Source: Pseudarthrobacter sp. ATCC 49987 | GTDB lineage: Bacteria; Actinomycetota; Actinomycetes; Actinomycetales; Micrococcaceae | Reading direction: 5' to 3' | DNA: 64,000 nt | Assembly: GCF_009928425.1 (NCBI RefSeq) | Contig: NZ_JAABNS010000001.1 | Coordinates: forward strand, 248,001-312,000 | In this document: positions 7,000 through 41,561 of the stretch, piece by piece | How positions within the stretch are numbered: position 1 is the first letter of the stretch | Layout: the number at the start of each line of letters is the position of its first letter | Notes under the pieces: model-generated | The model's database searches: none | What the model was told of the DNA's origin: nothing | The model's input: only the letters and a program-made list of their open reading frames with translations | Program-made: the position numbers and the translations under genes

Positions 7000-7460
7000 T
7001 CCCTCGCCTGGTGTTTGTCCGGGTTATCGCCGACCACCAGCACCGGGCAGTGTGCATGGGCCACGCAGGCACCGCTGACCGATCCCATGACCTGGGCGAG
7101 GAAGCCGCCGCGGCCGCGCCGGCCGACCACCAGAAGCTGGGCGTCCCGGCTCTCCTGCACGAGGACTTTGGCCGGAGGGCCGAACTTCACGGTCCGGGTC
7201 AGGCCTTCCGGGATGTCACCGCCGAAGGCACGTTCGAGGGATTCGTCGACGAGCCGTTTGGCCGTCTCTTCCAGCTGGGTGGTGGTGGGGGAGCTCTCTT
7301 CGGGCAGGTGGGAGGCCAGGAAAAGATCCGACGTGCCCAGGCATGTGACGACCTCCAGGGGCGCGTCAAGGCTCCTGGCCATGCGTCCGGCGAGCCGGAG
7401 CGCCGTCGTCGAGAAATCCGAACCGTCCACGCCCACGACTATCCGCTGATCAGCGTTCAT
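6996..7460 (-). CDS. Universal stress protein (UspA family)
   Basis: A 154-residue single-domain Usp. It opens with the family signature RIVVGVDGSDFST and carries the ATP-binding C-terminal motif as VVGRRGRGGFLAQVMGSVS (G-2x-G-9x-G-S type), so it probably binds ATP. The start used is the ATG at 7460 that places VGVDGS at the usual position; a longer reading to 7502 adds only an unrelated leader. It heads the minus-strand membrane-protein operon, its stop overlapping the next start by 4 bases. Confidence 0.9.
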   Translation of the reverse strand: MNADQRIVVGVDGSDFSTTALRLAGRMARSLDAPLEVVTCLGTSDLFLASHLPEESSPTTTQLEETAKRLVDESLERAFGGDIPEGLTRTVKFGPPAKVLVQESRDAQLLVVGRRGRGGFLAQVMGSVSGACVAHAHCPVLVVGDNPDKHQARE

Positions 7461-33258: not shown

Positions 33259-33306
33259 ACATGGTCTTCGGAGCCGGGCGGCCCGCGGATTGCCCGCCGC
33301 GCGGGG

Positions 33307-33514
33307 GACATGCCCTCCCCTGAGTTGCAGGGATGAGCATGTTGGCATTATGTCCAGTGGGCGCTGCCGGGGCTGGGCATGTCTCGTGGGTGCGGGAGGC
33401 GGGTTTGCGGGGCATGCCCTCCTGTGGGCTGCAGGGATGAGCATGTTGGCATTATGTCCAGTGGGCGCTGCCGGGGCTGGGCATGTCCTGAGGGTGCGGG
33501 AGGCGGGCATGTCC
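33307..33514. repeat. Two tandem 104-bp intergenic repeats
   Basis: Units at 33307-33410 and 33411-33514, about 90 percent identical with a 58-base identical core (33326-33383 in unit 1). Each contains (G/A)CATGCCCTCC, GATGAGCATG, TTGGCATTATGTCCAGTGG and CTGGGCATGTC. They fill most of the 310-base gap between the molybdoenzyme gene and purD; nothing else is seen there except the purD leader. Confidence 0.9.
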
Positions 33515-33568: not shown

Positions 33569-34879
33569 GTGAAGGTACTTGTCATCGGCCCCGGCGGCCG
33601 CGAACACGCCATTGTCCGATCCTTGCTTGCCGACCCGAACGTGTCCGAGGTCCACGCGGCCCCGGGCAACGCCGGCATCAGCAAACTGGTCCCCACACAC
33701 GCCATCGAAGCGAATGATCCCGACGCCGTCGCTGCCCTGGCCACCAAGCTCACCGTTGACCTCGTCGTCGTTGGCCCCGAGGCACCCCTTGCCGCCGGAG
33801 TGTCGGACGCCGTCCGCGCCGCGGGCATCCCCGTCTTCGGCCCCAGCATGGCCGCGGCCCAGCTCGAAGCCTCCAAGGCCTTCGCCAAGGAGGTCATGGC
33901 CGAGGCCGGAGTCCCCACGGCGATGGCCCGGGTGGCGTCCAACGCCGAGGAAGCCGCCGACGCGCTCGACACCTTCGGCGCCCCTTACGTGGTCAAGGAC
34001 GACGGACTCGCCGCGGGCAAGGGCGTTGTTGTCACCAACAACCGGGACGAGGCCCTCGCGCACGCGCAGAGCTGCTTCGATGCCGGCGGCACGGTGGTGA
34101 TCGAGGAATTCCTCGACGGCCCCGAGGTCTCCGTCTTCGTTCTCTGCGACGGCCGCAACACCGTGGCGCTCTCCCCGGCGCAGGACTTCAAACGGATCTT
34201 CGACAACGACGAAGGCCCCAACACCGGCGGCATGGGCGCCTACACCCCGCTGGAATGGGCCCCGGAAGGCCTGGTCCAGGAAGTCCTCGACCGTGTCGCC
34301 CAGCCCACGGTCAACCAGATGGCGCACCGCGGCACCCCGTTCGTCGGCGTGCTCTTCGTCGGACTGGCCCTGACCTCCCGCGGCACCCGCGTGATCGAAT
34401 TCAACGTCCGCTTCGGCGACCCGGAAACCCAGGCCGTCCTCGCCCGCCTCAAGACCCCGCTCGGGGGGCTGCTGATGGCGGCCGCCAAGGGCGAACTGGA
34501 CAAGGTCCAGCCGCTGCGCTGGTCGAAGGAAACGGCCATCGCCGTCGTCGTCGCCGCCGAAAACTACCCGGACGCCCCGCGGACCGGGGACCGCATCCGC
34601 GGGCTCAAGAAAGTCGAGTCGATCGAGGGCGTCCACGTGATCCACGCCGGCACCAGGCTCGACGACGAAGGCAAGGTCGTGTCCGCCGGCGGACGGGTCC
34701 TCGCCGTGGTGGCCCTCGGAACGGACCTGGTGGAGGCCCGGGAACGGGCGTACGACGGCGTCGAACTGGTCCAGCTGGAGGGCAGCCAGTTCCGCACCGA
34801 CATCGGCGGCAAAGCGGCCCGCGGCGAGATCAAAGTCCAGACCCCCGGTACCACCGCTGCCACGAAAGCGAAGGCCTGA
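33569..34879 (+). CDS. purD: Phosphoribosylamine-glycine ligase
   Basis: A 436-residue GAR synthetase, ATP-grasp, step 2 of purine synthesis. The start KVLVIGPGGREHAI is diagnostic, followed by APGNAGI, the ATP-grasp YVVKDDGLAAGKGVVV and EFNVRFGDPETQ near the metal site. GTG 33569 is the start; the frame is open upstream only through the repeats. purC follows after 2 bases. Confidence 0.95.
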   Translation: MKVLVIGPGGREHAIVRSLLADPNVSEVHAAPGNAGISKLVPTHAIEANDPDAVAALATKLTVDLVVVGPEAPLAAGVSDAVRAAGIPVFGPSMAAAQLEASKAFAKEVMAEAGVPTAMARVASNAEEAADALDTFGAPYVVKDDGLAAGKGVVVTNNRDEALAHAQSCFDAGGTVVIEEFLDGPEVSVFVLCDGRNTVALSPAQDFKRIFDNDEGPNTGGMGAYTPLEWAPEGLVQEVLDRVAQPTVNQMAHRGTPFVGVLFVGLALTSRGTRVIEFNVRFGDPETQAVLARLKTPLGGLLMAAAKGELDKVQPLRWSKETAIAVVVAAENYPDAPRTGDRIRGLKKVESIEGVHVIHAGTRLDDEGKVVSAGGRVLAVVALGTDLVEARERAYDGVELVQLEGSQFRTDIGGKAARGEIKVQTPGTTAATKAKA

Positions 34880-35871: not shown

Positions 35872-37134
35872 CTAGGTACCGGCCGCCGCCTGCGCGCGGC
35901 GCTGGGCCAGCCGGATTTCCAGGACGGCGTCCATCGCCTGCTGGACCCGGTCCGAGGCGCCGGCTGCACTGAATTCCTTCTGGGCTTCCTCGAGGTAGAC
36001 GAGGGCCTCGTCGGATTCGCCGGCGGCCTTGAGTGCCTTGCCGAGCAGCAGGGCCACCTCGCCGGCGACGTGCTTGGCCAATGCGTCCTTCTCGGCGTGG
36101 ATCTCCCGCAATTTCTGGACGGCCGCCACAATATCGCCGGTCAGGTAGAGCCAGCGGGCTCGGATGAACGCGACCTCCAGCTGGTCCGTCTTGTTGCCGC
36201 CTACGATCGAGAGCGCCAGCTCGGCGCGTTCGATCGACGTCAGCGTTTCGGGCTCGACGATCCCGGAGGACAGGCGCACGGCGGCGGAGGCCTTGTTGAA
36301 CCGCGCCCAGAGGTCGATGTCGTTGGCGGGGGAGAGCAGCTGTGCCGCCCGCTCGTGGTACTTGATGCCCTCGGTGTAGTCATGGCGCATGAAGGCCACG
36401 TTGCCGATCACCCAGGCGACTTCGCCGGCGAGCTGGGTCATGGAATGGTCGTCCATTTGCTCGTTCATGGCCTGGCAGTATTCCCAGGCCTCATCCAGCC
36501 GGCCGCTTTCGGCCAGGGCCCCGATGAGGGCCCGCAGCGCGCCGATGATCAGGGTGGAGCCCTTAGGCAGTTCGGCGCAGAGCCGCACCGCTTCCTGCGC
36601 GTGTTCGACGGCGACTGCCAGTTGGCCCTGGCCGTGGCACACGGCCGCGAGCATCTGCCGTGCCCGAACGCCCAGGCCCGCCGACTCGGCGGCCATCGGA
36701 TGGTCCAGCAGCCGCTGGACAAGGTCTTGGCATTCCTTGAGCTGGCCCTGCTTCATGAGGCACTCGGCCTGCATGTAGCTCATGTTCCACCAGGCGCTGG
36801 TGTTCCGGGCGTCGAGGGCGATCTGGGCTGCCGCAGCGGCGTGGGTCTCCGCCAGCGGGTAGTCCCGCAGGTCCCACGCCTGGCGTGCATAGAGGCCCGC
36901 CAGGACGTATTCGGCGTCGCCGACCGACACCGGCTGGCTCCAGGCTTCCAGCGCTTTGGGGGCGAGTTCGAGCCGACGGGCGAGCTCCTCGATCACATCC
37001 GCGGTAGGTTCGCGCCGCCCGGTCTCCAGCAGGGAGATGTAGCTGGGCGAGTACAGATCGCGGCCCAGTTCCGCCTGCGTCAGGCCTCGCTCGAGCCGTT
37101 CCGCTCGGAGTTTCTCCCCGAATCCGTTCCCCAC
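35872..37134 (-). CDS. XRE-family regulator with C-terminal TPR domain (RRNPP-like)
   Basis: A 420-residue cytoplasmic transcription factor. Residues about 5-60 are an XRE-type helix-turn-helix (EKLRAERLERGLTQAELGRD, YISLLETGRREP). Residues about 75-410 are tetratricopeptide-like helical repeats, for example YARQAWDLRDYPLAETHAAAAAQIA and EVAWVIGNVAFMRHDYTEGIKYHERAA. This HTH-plus-TPR layout is that of the RRNPP peptide-sensing regulators (Rgg, PlcR, PrgX, NprR). The GTG start at 37134 has AGGAGG 5 bases upstream. It is divergent from a repetitive secreted peptide gene 144 bases away, its likely ligand source (inference). Confidence 0.88.
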   Translation of the reverse strand: MGNGFGEKLRAERLERGLTQAELGRDLYSPSYISLLETGRREPTADVIEELARRLELAPKALEAWSQPVSVGDAEYVLAGLYARQAWDLRDYPLAETHAAAAAQIALDARNTSAWWNMSYMQAECLMKQGQLKECQDLVQRLLDHPMAAESAGLGVRARQMLAAVCHGQGQLAVAVEHAQEAVRLCAELPKGSTLIIGALRALIGALAESGRLDEAWEYCQAMNEQMDDHSMTQLAGEVAWVIGNVAFMRHDYTEGIKYHERAAQLLSPANDIDLWARFNKASAAVRLSSGIVEPETLTSIERAELALSIVGGNKTDQLEVAFIRARWLYLTGDIVAAVQKLREIHAEKDALAKHVAGEVALLLGKALKAAGESDEALVYLEEAQKEFSAAGASDRVQQAMDAVLEIRLAQRRAQAAAGT

Positions 37135-37152
37135 GGGTTCCTCCTAATTCCG

Positions 37153-37204
37153 GACAGTCTTTGTACTAAATGCTTGACAGTCTCTGTGCAAGCCATTTTA
37201 CAAT
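37153..37204. promoter_or_regulatory. Shared control region: two ACAG-N3-(C/T)TGT dyads and promoter-like boxes
   Basis: Direct repeats GACAGTCTTTGTAC (37153-37166) and GACAGTCTCTGTGC (37176-37189) are 23 bases apart, about two helical turns. Each contains an 11-bp dyad ACAG-N3-YTGT (37154-37164, 37177-37187). On the plus strand TTGACA (37174-37179) overlaps the second dyad, with TTTACA 17 bases or TACAAT 19 bases downstream as the -10. On the minus strand TTGCAC-N17-TAGTAC could serve the regulator gene. Arrangement fits autoregulated operators. Confidence 0.55.
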
Positions 37205-37278
37205 GTATGTCAACAAGGGCTCGTGCTGGCTTTGTAATGTGTCCGACTCGCGTTTCCGACTCGTATTGAGGAACCCAC

Positions 37279-37521
37279 ATGATCAAGAAGATTGCAGCTT
37301 CCGTTGCCTTGGCGGGGGCGCTGGCTCTCTCCGCAGCGGCTCCGGCAGTCCTGTCGATAAGTGCTATCGGCAACTGGCCGGATCCGATGGGCATCACCCT
37401 GTCGATCGGCAACTGGCCCGATCCCATGAGCTCCAACCGGGGAAGCCTCTCGGCTATTGGCAACTGGCCGGACCCGATGACCTTCGCCACCAACATCGGC
37501 AACTGGCCGGATCCGATGTAA
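37279..37521 (+). CDS. Secreted precursor peptide with four IGNWPDPM repeats (candidate pheromone)
   Basis: An 80-residue pre-peptide. Residues 1-23 form a Sec signal peptide (MIKKIAASVALAGALALS, cleavage after APA23). The mature part holds the octapeptide IGNWPDPM at residues 30-37, 43-50, 60-67 and 73-80, the last being the C-terminus. Three copies are preceded by Ser or Ser-Ala. Spacers (GITL, SSNRGSL, TFAT) vary. GAGGA lies 6 bases before ATG 37279; a strong terminator follows the stop. The neighbouring divergent XRE-TPR regulator suggests a multi-copy signalling peptide. A RiPP or antimicrobial precursor is possible but no modifying enzyme is nearby. Confidence 0.8.
   Translation: MIKKIAASVALAGALALSAAAPAVLSISAIGNWPDPMGITLSIGNWPDPMSSNRGSLSAIGNWPDPMTFATNIGNWPDPM
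37366..37518 (+). repeat. Four 24-bp units encoding identical IGNWPDPM octapeptides
   Basis: Units at 37366-37389, 37405-37428, 37456-37479 and 37495-37518. Units 1 and 4 are identical at DNA level; units 2 and 3 each differ at two bases, all third codon positions. Protein identity is complete, pointing to selection on the peptide. Confidence 0.92.
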
Positions 37522-37538
37522 GCAGTCGCTCCTTGATG

Positions 37539-37577
37539 GCTCCGGGACACCTGCGCAGGTGTCCCGGAGCTCTTTTT
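37539..37577 (+). terminator. Strong intrinsic terminator of the repeat-peptide gene
   Basis: A perfect 14-bp stem (GCTCCGGGACACCT, tetraloop GCGC) is followed by TCTTTTT. It lies 18 bases after the stop codon, so the peptide gene is a short monocistronic transcript. Confidence 0.92.
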
Positions 37578-37749: not shown

Positions 37750-37826
37750 TGGTCGGGATGACAGGATTTGAACCTGCGACCTCGTCGTCCCGAACGACGC
37801 GCGCTACCAAGCTGCGCCACATCCCG
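37750..37826 (-). tRNA. tRNA-Pro (anticodon CGG)
   Basis: The minus strand folds as a full cloverleaf: acceptor CGGGATG with matching 3' strand, D arm with GCGCAGCTTGGTAGCGC, anticodon stem CGTCG/CGACG around loop TTCGGGA, variable loop AGGTC and T arm with GGTTCAAATCC. Anticodon CGG lies at 37790-37792. The CCA end is encoded (37750-37752). Confidence 0.95.
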
Positions 37827-37902: not shown

Positions 37903-39732
37903 TCAGACCAGCGAATCCTTCCAGGCCCCGTGCAGCTGCGCGAAGCGGCCGCCGCCGCCGATCAGCTCCGCCGGGGTGCCGTCCTCGACCACCCGCCCGT
38001 CGTGCACGACGAGGACCCGGTCGGCCGTCTCCACCGTCGACAGGCGGTGCGCGATGATGAGGGCGGTCCGGCCGGTGCCGGCGCCGATCCCCTGCAGCAG
38101 CCCCGCGAGGCCGGCCTGCACGAGCCGCTCGGACGGGATGTCCAGCGAGGACGTGGCCTCGTCGAGGATCAGGACGGCGGGCCGGGCCAGGAAAGCCCGG
38201 GCGAAGCTGATCAGTTGGCGCTGCCCGGCCGAAACCCGGCCGCCGCGCTTGTTGACGTCCGTGTCGTAGCCTTCCGGGAGCTCCTGGATGAACTCGTGGG
38301 CGCCCACCGCCCTGGCGGCAGCCTCGATCTCCTCACGGGAGGCGCCGGGCCGGCCCAGGGCGATGTTGTCCGCCACGGATCCGCTGAACAGGAAGGCCTC
38401 CTGGGTGACCATCACGACATTCCGCCGCAGATCCGCCGTCGCAAGCTCCCGCAGGTCCACGCCGTCGAGCGTGAGGGAACCTGCCGAGACGTCGTAGAAG
38501 CGGGCGATCAGCTTGGCGAAAGTGGATTTGCCGGCGCCGGTCTGGCCGACCAGCGCCACGGTCTGGCCGGCGGGGATGTGCAGGTCCATGGTGGGGATGA
38601 TGACCGGGCCGTCGCCGTAGCGGAATTCGACGCCTTTGAAGTCGATGGTTCCCTTGGCGTCGTGCAGTGCCACCGGGTTCCTGGGCGGCCGGACGGTGGG
38701 GACTTCCTCGAGGAGGCCGGAGACTTTCTCCAGCGCCGCCTGGGCGCTCTGGAAGGAGTTGTAGAACATGGCCATCTGGTCCACCGGCTGGAAGAAGCGT
38801 TTGGTGGACAGGATCAGGGCCAGCAGCACACCGACGGCGAGGTCGCCGCTGAGCACCCGGAAGCCGCCGAACAGCAGGACGACGGCGACGCAGACATTGC
38901 CGATCAGCACCAGGCCGGGCTGGAGGATGCCGTTTAGGTTGATGGAGCGGACCGTGACTTTGCGGTAGTCCTCGGAGAGCCCGGCGTACTGTGCGGCGTT
39001 TTCGCGTTCCTTCCGGAAGGCCTTAACCGCGCGGATGCCGGTCATGGTTTCGACGAAGTGCACGATGAGCCGGGCCGAGACGACGCGGGATTCGCGGAAC
39101 GCGATCTCGGAGTGCTTCTGGTACCAGCGGGCCAGGAAGTACATCGGCACGCCGGCGGCCAGGACCAGGAGCCCGCTGCGCCAGTCGAGGGCGAACACGG
39201 TCACGGCGGTGAAGACCATAAACAGCATCCCCGACGCCAGCGAGCTGATCCCGGAGTCCAGAAGTTCGCGCAGGGCCTCCAGGTCCGAGGTCTGCCGGGC
39301 AATGATCCGGCCAGAGGTGTACTTTTCGTGGAATTCCAGGCTGAGCCGCTGGGTGTGCCGGAAGACCCGGACGCGCAGGTCCAGCAGCATCGCCTGGCTG
39401 AGTCTTGCCGTCGAGGTCACGTACAGGGCCGTGAGGCACGCCGTCGCGACGGCGGCGGCGAGGTAGGCAGCCCCGGTGAGCAGCAGCGGGAGGTTGTCGC
39501 CGGCGCGCAGGGCCGGCAGGGCCCGGTCGATGCCGAACGCTATCAGCGCAGGCCCGGCAACCCGCGCCGCCTGGGACAGCACGACGGCGGCAATTGTCAG
39601 CCAGAACCGCCGGCGGACCGGGCGGATGAGCGAGCCCAGCAGGGCAAGGGAGCGGCGCCGGACGGTCTTGCTCTCGCTCTTGGACAGGTGCGCGTTGTCC
39701 TCGTTCGCGGTGCCGAAGGTGGCGCTGCTCAT
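37903..39732 (-). CDS. ABC exporter subunit (permease-ATPase half transporter)
   Basis: A 609-residue half-transporter: six membrane helices (residues about 35-330) then an ATPase domain with Walker [10 protein letters not shown], Walker [12 protein letters not shown] (catalytic Glu present) and an atypical signature VSAGQ in place of LSGGQ. Its partner, overlapping by 4 bases, has the opposite pattern, so the two should form an asymmetric heterodimer of the TmrAB/BmrCD type. Exports drugs, lipids or peptides; substrate unknown. Confidence 0.92.
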
Positions 39733-41561
39733 CGGGAAACCTCCTCGGCGTTGAGCCCTGACAGATCGGAGTCCAGCAGATCGGAGTCCAGGTCCCGCGG
39801 TTCCGGGTCGAGGCTGGCGATCACGTAGCGGTAGTGGCGGTTCTCGGCGAGCAGTTCGGTGTGGGTTCCGACGGCGGTGATCCGGCCGTCCTCCAGCAGC
39901 GCCACCCGGTCCGCCAGCGCCACGGTGGACGGCCGGTGGGCCACGATCAGCGTCGTGGTGTCGGAGAGCACCTCCCGCAGCCGGGTCTCGACGAGTTCCT
40001 CGGTGTGGACGTCCAGGGCGGAGAGCGGATCGTCCAGGACCAGGACCCTGGGCCGGGCGGCGATGGCGCGGGCCAGGGCGATGCGCTGGCGCTGGCCGCC
40101 GGAAAGGCTGAGCCCCTCCTCGCCGATCAGGGTGTCCAGGCCGTTCGGGAGCGAGTAGGCAAAGTGGGCCTGGGCGACGTCGAGCGCCTCCTCCAGGGCC
40201 TCCTCGCGGCGCTCGGCCGGGAGTCCGGCGGGGGCGCCGAGCATCACGTTGTCGCGGACCGAACTGGAGAACAGGGTGGTGTCCTCAAACGCGACGGCGA
40301 CAACCGTGCGGAGCTCCTCGACGCTGAACTCCCGCAGGTCCACCCCGTCGATCGTGATGGAACCGTCGGTGACCTCGTAGAGCCGGGGAACCAGCTGGAG
40401 CAGGGCGCTCTTTCCGCTGCCCGTGATGCCCACCAGGGCCATGGTTTCGCCCGGCCTGATGTCCAGGTTGATGTCTTTGAGGATCCGTTTGTCCGGGGCG
40501 TCCTCATACGCGAAGGTCGCTGCGTTGAAGCTGAGGGCGCCCTTCAGCTCGGCGGGGCGGCGGGCCTGTCCGGGGCTGGTGATGGTGTTCACCGAGTCCA
40601 TCACCTCGAAGTGCCGGTCCACGGCAGTCTTGGCGGTGAGGGCCATCGCCAGCAGCATGCCGCAGAACTCCACCGGCGTGGCGATGACGGCGGCGGTGGC
40701 GAAGAACGCCACGAGGGCGCCGATGCTCAGCTCACCGGTGGAGGCCAACATGACGCCGACGACGAGACCGGCGCCGAGAGCCAGCTCGGGCAGGAGGGTA
40801 ACGACCAGGCTGAAGGTGGCGAGGTGCTTGGCCTTGGCAATCTCCGTCTGGCGGAGCTCCTCGGCCTGCTCGTTGAAGTGTTCCAGCGCCTCGCGGCTGC
40901 GGCCGAACGCCTTGAGCACGCGGATTCCGTGGACCGATTCCTCGACCGTGGTGGCGAGGTCGCCGGCCTGGTCCTGGCTCCGGCGCGCCACCTTGCTGAA
41001 GCGGGTGCGGAACCGGAAGCCATAAATCATGATCGGCACCGCCGCGGCCAGGAAAATCAGCGCCAGCTGCCAGCTCATCGTGAACATCACGACGACGCCG
41101 ATCACCACGGTCAGGGTGGTCACCACGAGCATGATCGCGCCGAAGGCCATCCAGCGGCGCAGGAAGTTCAGGTCCGTCATGGCGCGGGAGAGCAGCTGCC
41201 CGGAGCCCCAACGGTCATGGAAGGAGACCGTCAGGTCCTGCAGATGGCCGTAAAGGGACACCCGCATCCGGGTCTCGACCGTGGTGGCGGGATTGATCAC
41301 GAACTGCCGGCGCAGCGCCACGAGGCCGGCTTCGGCAATGCCGAGGCCGAGGATGATGAGGGAGGCGATCCAGACCGCGTCCGCGCTGCCGCCGGGCTGG
41401 AGGGACTGGTTGATCAGCACCCGCAGCACCTGGGGGGTGGTCAGGGCCACCACGCTCGCGAGCAAGGCGCACAGCAGCCCCATGACCAGCCGCGGAATGA
41501 TCGGCCTGACGTGGGGATAAAGACGGCTGATGGAGGAGAAAAATGAGGTCTGCTTGGCCAT
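39729..41561 (-). CDS. ABC exporter subunit (permease-ATPase half transporter)
   Basis: A 610-residue half-transporter with six helices and an ATPase domain: Walker [10 protein letters not shown], canonical signature LSGGQRQR but Walker [12 protein letters not shown], in which Asp replaces the catalytic Glu. With the neighbouring subunit (Glu present, signature VSAGQ) this gives one full and one degenerate ATP site. It is the first gene of the pair; the upstream region has an operator-like dyad at 41607-41627. Confidence 0.92.

Follow-up and report, generated by a model that had tools for sequence, protein, structure and literature searches.

Proteins of the RRNPP (RRNPPA) group have been studied among Firmicutes, according to the excerpts of PMC9765709 consulted, and the analysis in the retrieved part of PMC10075063 covered Firmicutes and viruses only, describing actinobacterial signals as typically small molecules; the absence of such systems outside Firmicutes is therefore partly explained by where the surveys looked. 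Within this group, the Phr precursors of Rap-Phr carry up to 8 peptide copies (PMC11343458, in part). Regarding Actinobacteria, the available sections of a 2016 review of their quorum sensing (PMC4748050) list LuxR-type genes for Arthrobacter, cyclic or modified peptides and butyrolactones, and in those sections peptides sensed inside the cell by receptors with tetratricopeptide repeats (TPR) are not mentioned. Here, we describe such a candidate in a stretch of 64,000 nucleotides from Pseudarthrobacter sp. ATCC 49987 (contig NZ_JAABNS010000001.1, positions 248,001 to 312,000, hereafter the window), where a regulator with an XRE-type helix-turn-helix (HTH) and TPRs is encoded divergently from a small, secreted-like precursor with four copies of the octapeptide IGNWPDPM. 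We read the two as an RRNPP-like pheromone/receptor pair in Actinomycetota, with a probability of about 0.8, on the basis of the gene pair itself, the repeats, purifying selection on the peptide, covariation between peptide and regulator, and a conserved promoter element. Among openly licensed PMC papers, preprints excluded, no paper contains IGNWPDPM, an absence that is not proof, and the same literature found no actinobacterial RRNPP-like system, including in the part of PMC13220807 retrieved.

The gene pair and its repeats

The features of the locus are as follows (window coordinates):
35872..37134, minus strand: regulator of 420 amino acids with XRE-type HTH and TPRs, GTG start, putative intracellular peptide receptor (Pfam, AF2 model)
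36613..36759, minus strand: codons of regulator residues 126-174 (TPR2-TPR3), counted from the GTG at 37134, the patch covarying with peptide residue 1
37174..37213, plus strand: promoter/operator-like 40-nt element TTGACA-N28-TGTCAA with TTTAC inside, in the divergent intergenic region (conserved fixed spacing)
37279..37521, plus strand: precursor of 80 amino acids, ATG start, signal-peptide-like N-terminus and four IGNWPDPM (open reading frame, homologues)
37279..37356, plus strand: signal-peptide-like region, residues about 1-26 (by eye from the sequence)
37366..37389, plus strand: IGNWPDPM copy 1, residues 30-37
37405..37428, plus strand: IGNWPDPM copy 2, residues 43-50
37456..37479, plus strand: IGNWPDPM copy 3, residues 60-67
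37495..37518, plus strand: IGNWPDPM copy 4, residues 73-80, the exact C-terminus
37538..37571, plus strand: intrinsic terminator of the precursor gene (stem and T-run, folding z)

Both open reading frames (ORFs), as proposed by a first-pass annotation made from the letters alone, were confirmed, and so was its description of the repeats: the fourth copy directly precedes the stop codon, and the four 24-nt units differ synonymously only, varying at third positions, with copies 1 and 4 identical. When the 80 residues of the precursor were shuffled, any 3-mer reached at least four copies in only 19 of 20,000 shuffles; chance is thus no explanation for an 8-mer present four times. A Pfam scan of the precursor gave no match. 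Its N-terminus, judged by eye and by pattern only, has two lysines, a hydrophobic core and AxA-type sites; K3, K4 and I5 are invariant across 17 aligned rows. The gene ends at a terminator with a 15-bp stem and T-run (z = -6.8). A phage or plasmid origin was considered and rejected: none of 50,697 phage records matched, and 72,556 plasmids gave a single match, due to chance (E up to 10). A pattern scan of viral contigs gave at least 120 stretches, and none of the 120 that were translated encodes a similar repeat protein.

The regulator matches the Pfam models HTH_31 (1.8e-11), HTH_3 (7.8e-11) and TPR_12 (4.6e-10), as well as TPR_14 and TPR_2, and its AF2 model has a TPR solenoid at residues 71-419 (mean pLDDT 78.8), with residues 1-68 below 50. 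Thus, the pair has the solenoid expected of RRNPP (RRNPPA) proteins, the N-terminal XRE HTH of their transcription-factor subfamilies and the adjoining small precursor with an export signal, the latter judged by pattern only. Compared with solved structures, the HTH profile finds PlcR first (3e-11, HTH only), followed by an immunity repressor (5.6e-11), and also matches ComR HTHs (E 1.8e-7, HTH only). No subfamily-specific Pfam or NCBIfam model for Rap, NprR, PlcR, Rgg, ComR, PrgX or AimR is among the regulator matches, and in fold searches the matches to NprR and Rap are not above those to other TPR proteins, so that RRNPP membership is not separable in this way. The source genome (4.40 Mb, 3 contigs) is a member of the Arthrobacter group; among named loci, regulators 97% identical to that of the window occur in Pseudarthrobacter oxydans CC185 and Arthrobacter sp. 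AL12.

Coupling of the peptide with its regulator

The association between the two genes holds in both directions. The precursor was searched for in 99 genomes, being 61 of the same genus (that of the window included) and 38 from other families of the order; it was matched in all 61 of the former (E 4.3e-5 or better), with no convincing match in the latter (best 0.005). In each of the 61 loci the regulator is divergent from the precursor, 122-144 nt from its start. Among these, the regulator is split by a frameshift in L008, and L061 (genome G015) has the only degenerate core (GNWPYPV, once), with the regulator kept. Across the family, the precursor profile matches 105 of 395 genomes, spread over 8 of 32 genera, and a regulator or TPR-only relative is present in 35 of 36 further regions fetched, the exception (L097) being a leaderless copy. 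In the opposite direction, a search of one-per-species genomes with the regulator gave 267 relatives; the 80 best (from Arthrobacter, Pseudarthrobacter and Paenarthrobacter) are all adjoined by a precursor, 79 called by script and L290 by eye; four of the 80 loci have one intact copy only.

The core is nearly constant while the spacers and the copy number (up to 8) vary, so the repeats are conserved as peptide. By lineage, the cores are IGNWPDPM, VGNWPDPM, IGNWPDPA, TGNWPDPV, SGNWPNPM and VGNWPDPS, as well as FVGNWPDAV, VGNWPDRF, PGNWPD, KIGNWPDG and AVGIWPNS. In 145 distinct regulator/peptide pairs (from 169), 140 precursors have at least two copies (2-8), and in 127 of these 140 the copies are uniform over all eight residues, compared with a mean of 32.5 and a maximum of 47 in 1000 permutations. 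Codon differences between copies of one gene, whose pairs are not independent of each other, are synonymous in 1068 cases and non-synonymous in 52, against a mutational opportunity of 13:59. As judged from these counts, the peptide core is under purifying selection, and the eight conserved residues suggest that proteases release a linear mature form some 5-10 residues long.

Covariation links this peptide to a defined part of the regulator. Mapped on the regulator tree of 143 regulator/peptide pairs, residue 1 of the peptide has 8 changes, and 5 in the subset of 134 where it is Ile or Val. All 80 Ile-type pairs have Leu at regulator residue 132, and all 54 Val-type pairs an aromatic residue (Trp 45, Tyr 6, Phe 3), while the eight Thr/Ser-type pairs combine Leu132 with Arg168, the remaining 135 pairs having Gly168. 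The top 12 of 661 column-residue tests fall in 7 distinct columns, all within regulator residues 127-174 (127, 132, 164, 165, 167, 169 and 174; residue 168 follows the Thr/Ser types). The supported independent switches are concordant in 4 of 4 cases, which is weak as a sign test. For residue 8 of the peptide (M against others), no regulator column covaries cleanly. Numbered from the conserved GxL motif, residues 127, 164, 167 and 168 are TPR positions 12, 9, 12 and 13, which are concave, ligand-contacting positions of TPR motifs; residue 132 is position 17, not among them. The pairing of Ile with Leu, and of Val with Trp, Tyr or Phe, amounts to size compensation, as expected of a pocket.

Vertically inherited neighbours could show such a pattern through shared ancestry alone, as the locus is found throughout the genus sample and residue 1 changes so few times on the tree. 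For this reading, the appropriate comparison is with other traits of the same neighbouring gene, and the same test was applied to 14 signal-peptide traits (top 25 column-residue tests per trait). Where at least three independent pairs are available (10 traits), the best trait reaches 2.67 of 4 pairs, no comparable covariation; the highest possible value is reached by two traits that have no more than one or two pairs, and signal-peptide column 9 has regulator residues 167 and 165 on top with 1.6 of 7 pairs. Together with the clustering in TPR2-3 and the size compensation, this makes mere hitch-hiking highly improbable. The covariation supports binding of the peptide in the TPR groove of its partner, and the regulator very probably evolved together with the peptide as its sensor. 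Of the conditions that the first-pass annotation named as speaking against its RRNPP-like interpretation, the two examined here, random loss of either partner and lack of peptide conservation among species, both turned out in its favour, and the covariation adds to this support.

The same result bears on a second alternative, in which the repeats are cores of a multi-core ribosomally synthesized and post-translationally modified peptide (RiPP) or antimicrobial, the XRE-TPR protein is a mere pathway regulator, and the product leaves through two ABC exporter genes at window positions 37903-41561. Repeated cores with variable spacers do resemble multi-core RiPP precursors, and the exporter pair lies just past the tRNA-Pro(CGG) gene (37750-37826), which is itself downstream of the precursor gene on the opposite strand. 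However, a Pfam scan of neighbouring genes identified a molybdopterin oxidoreductase, purD, purC and the two ABC genes but no tailoring enzyme, the precursor N-terminus resembles a Sec signal peptide, and covariation with residue 1 of the core is not what one would expect from a pathway regulator to which the product does not bind, so this alternative is considered quite unlikely. Elsewhere in the window, a 104-bp tandem repeat (two copies, 91% matches) lies at 33305-33507, just before the purD coding sequence, which starts near 33569.

Proposed circuit and its promoter region

In the pheromone/receptor reading, the precursor would be exported via Sec, extracellular proteases would release several identical peptides around IGNWPDPM, and oligopeptide permeases would re-import them; nine SBP_bac_5 (oligopeptide-binding) matches in the source genome are candidates for this role. 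The imported peptide may then bind the XRE-TPR protein encoded by the divergent gene, in its TPR groove, with peptide residue 1 in a pocket formed by TPR2 and TPR3 (around 127/132/164-168), and binding would alter the action of the HTH on TTGACA-N28-TGTCAA in the shared promoter region. The precursor, and probably the receptor as well, would thereby come under feedback. Processing, export, import and binding, the binder of the element, the sign of the feedback, density dependence and any further targets or regulon are the inferred parts of this scheme.

Regarding the promoter region, the TTGACA-N28-TGTCAA element with its internal TTTAC keeps a fixed spacing in 86 of 90 related intergenic regions; the real finding is the spacing, because the search pattern itself demanded some of the letters. 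The terminator claimed by the first-pass annotation stood, and of its promoter boxes the conserved TTGACA/TTTAC element can be retained, although a strict sigma-70 scan found no promoter. All 37 same-genus genomes scanned have the 40-nt element at the home locus, and G022 has one additional site, at 3 mismatches. Searches for a regulon with the 40-nt element and its 19-nt downstream part returned the home promoter and scattered sites with 2-3 mismatches, no regulon being visible. The simplest reading is that a site of the regulator overlies the precursor promoter.

Essentially one operator-like site per genome would also suit a loop that is cell-autonomous, where the peptide is indeed the ligand of the regulator and the timing of its export and import reports the state of secretion, cell wall or proteases instead of density. 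Seven genomes (L062-L067 and L097) have leaderless ORFs in which the same cores, e.g. RIGNWPDPM, occur 2-4 times, with no regulator inside the fetched stretches; these ORFs suggest that an intracellular supply of peptide can matter, which also favours such a loop. In G029, one core of the leaderless ORF is TGNWPDPM, matching the type of its own main system. On the other side, the signal-peptide-like N-terminus is retained, as judged by pattern, in precursors throughout the genus, and the lineage-specific peptide types resemble signalling specificity, leaving the cell-autonomous loop a possible but doubtful explanation. If the pheromone reading is correct, the phylum of Streptomyces would have a directly testable, intracellularly sensed peptide signal, short and possibly unmodified, thus simple to synthesise and add, and the swap of Ile/Val with Leu/Trp132 would offer a ready-made specificity switch for experiments.

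Relatives across the class and comparison with known systems

A second, paralogous pair of the source genome, system B (G000:C1:2982044-2983033; L251:6030-7154 and 7263-7415), lies outside the window and has an HTH-less TPR protein that is 38% identical to the window regulator over the TPR part. Its TPR gene is divergent from a 50-residue secreted-like ORF ending VQAVNWWPNSTPKN and adjoins a HAMP-GGDEF-EAL gene, a Rap-like architecture; the ORFs of its relatives end IGWWPN, VGWWPH and VNWWPN. A gene with the GGDEF motif is present in 10 of 13 loci of this type checked, and Pfam GGDEF and EAL in all three examined (L361, L251 and L359). At L361:1477-4007 the TPR-only gene overlaps the start of the GGDEF-EAL gene, which suggests a peptide input to cyclic-di-GMP.

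With a widened profile, a relative was found in 89 of 394 genomes of the class. Of the 67 loci given, a script located the regulator in 59. In 38 of these, a divergent secreted-like ORF carries CC or WP at its end or close to it, a criterion chosen after examples had been seen. The order search (L345-L364) contributes 12 of 17 loci and the class search (L368-L414) 26 of 42, and family f38 accounts for 17 of the latter 26. As background, 464.8 strand-kb contained 15 such ORFs, which corresponds to 0.014 per window of the scan. L350 and L368 are duplicates, as are L352 and L369, and L357 is system B of the source genome. Some ORFs combine both endings (EPNWPTMCC, QPDWPGMCC, ALNWPKCC), and in L350, from another family of the order, an XRE-TPR homologue faces an ORF with TVGGSWPT three times. 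The first-pass annotation had proposed a search in Micrococcaceae; related pairs are also found beyond that family.

By reading alone, further candidates were noted at L348, L354, L359, L373, L380, L390, L397-L401, L405 and L414; two more, at L353 and L355, are encoded on the same strand. Upstream of position 1501 in L348, a leaderless 29-residue ORF ending VGDWPD is divergent from the XRE-TPR gene. CC-ending secreted-like ORFs lie beside XRE-TPR genes of other actinomycete families at L371-L374, L376-L389, L391, L393 and L394, and further at L397-L401, L403, L405, L410 (CC one residue before the end) and L411; a second one occurs on the other side of the regulator at L382:1123-1287 and L386:1032-1289. 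Family f37 has secreted-like ORFs with repeated DIEWP (2 copies, L408:781-990) or DISWP (3 copies, L414:570-848) upstream of regulator homologues. No candidate ORF was seen at L347, L352/L369, L356, L370, L375, L392, L396, L402, L404, L406, L409, L412 and L413.

An f38 regulator has plasmid homologues in 16 records, six of which were viewed (five Streptomyces, one Streptosporangium). In L417 alone, a secreted-like ORF that ends in CC lies downstream of the regulator on its strand; the same scan found none at the other five, and the class-wide rule thus has exceptions. An XRE-TPR homologue is also present in the unverified phage contig MT836207.1, with no secreted peptide seen beside it. A possible link to nsdA was not borne out by any paper in the literature search.

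The association of TPR proteins with WP or CC ORFs across the class is a lead. On balance, we lean towards Actinomycetes having their own class-wide RRNPP counterpart, which would comprise XRE-TPR and HTH-less TPR receptors (the latter tied to cyclic-di-GMP) with exported WP or CC peptides, arisen or spread apart from Bacillota. The peptides would range from [IV]GNWPDPM in Arthrobacter to xWPxMCC, GDISWP and TVGGSWPT in other families, and such a counterpart would have escaped notice because the precursors are tiny and the surveys covered Firmicutes.

Comparing the window pair with known systems, gamma-butyrolactone signals are enzyme-made small molecules with TetR-type receptors. Their likeness to it lies in cell-cell signalling within Actinobacteria (PMC4748050, sections available). 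Rap/Phr, including the multi-copy Phr of phi3T and phi105 (PMC11343458, in part), differs in that Rap is without the HTH that the window regulator has. System B is the HTH-less counterpart of Rap, yet it adjoins GGDEF-EAL genes and not a phosphorelay. ComR/ComS and Rgg/SHP of streptococci are alike in having an XRE-type regulator with a peptide groove, the ComR match being in the HTH only, but they belong to a different phylum, and their precursors are usually single-copy. Compared to PlcR/PapR and NprR/NprX of the Bacillus cereus group, the window pair stands apart in its phylum, its divergent precursor gene and its WP-centred peptide; in its family, 140 of 145 pairs have 2-8 copies, which agree with each other in 127 of them, and the PlcR match covers the HTH only. 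The first-pass annotation put it too strongly when it held that known systems usually carry a single copy, since Phr precursors reach eight (PMC11343458, in part), and the new branch it proposed is new in its phylum and signal family, not in its repeats, because multi-copy precursors are known from Bacillota.
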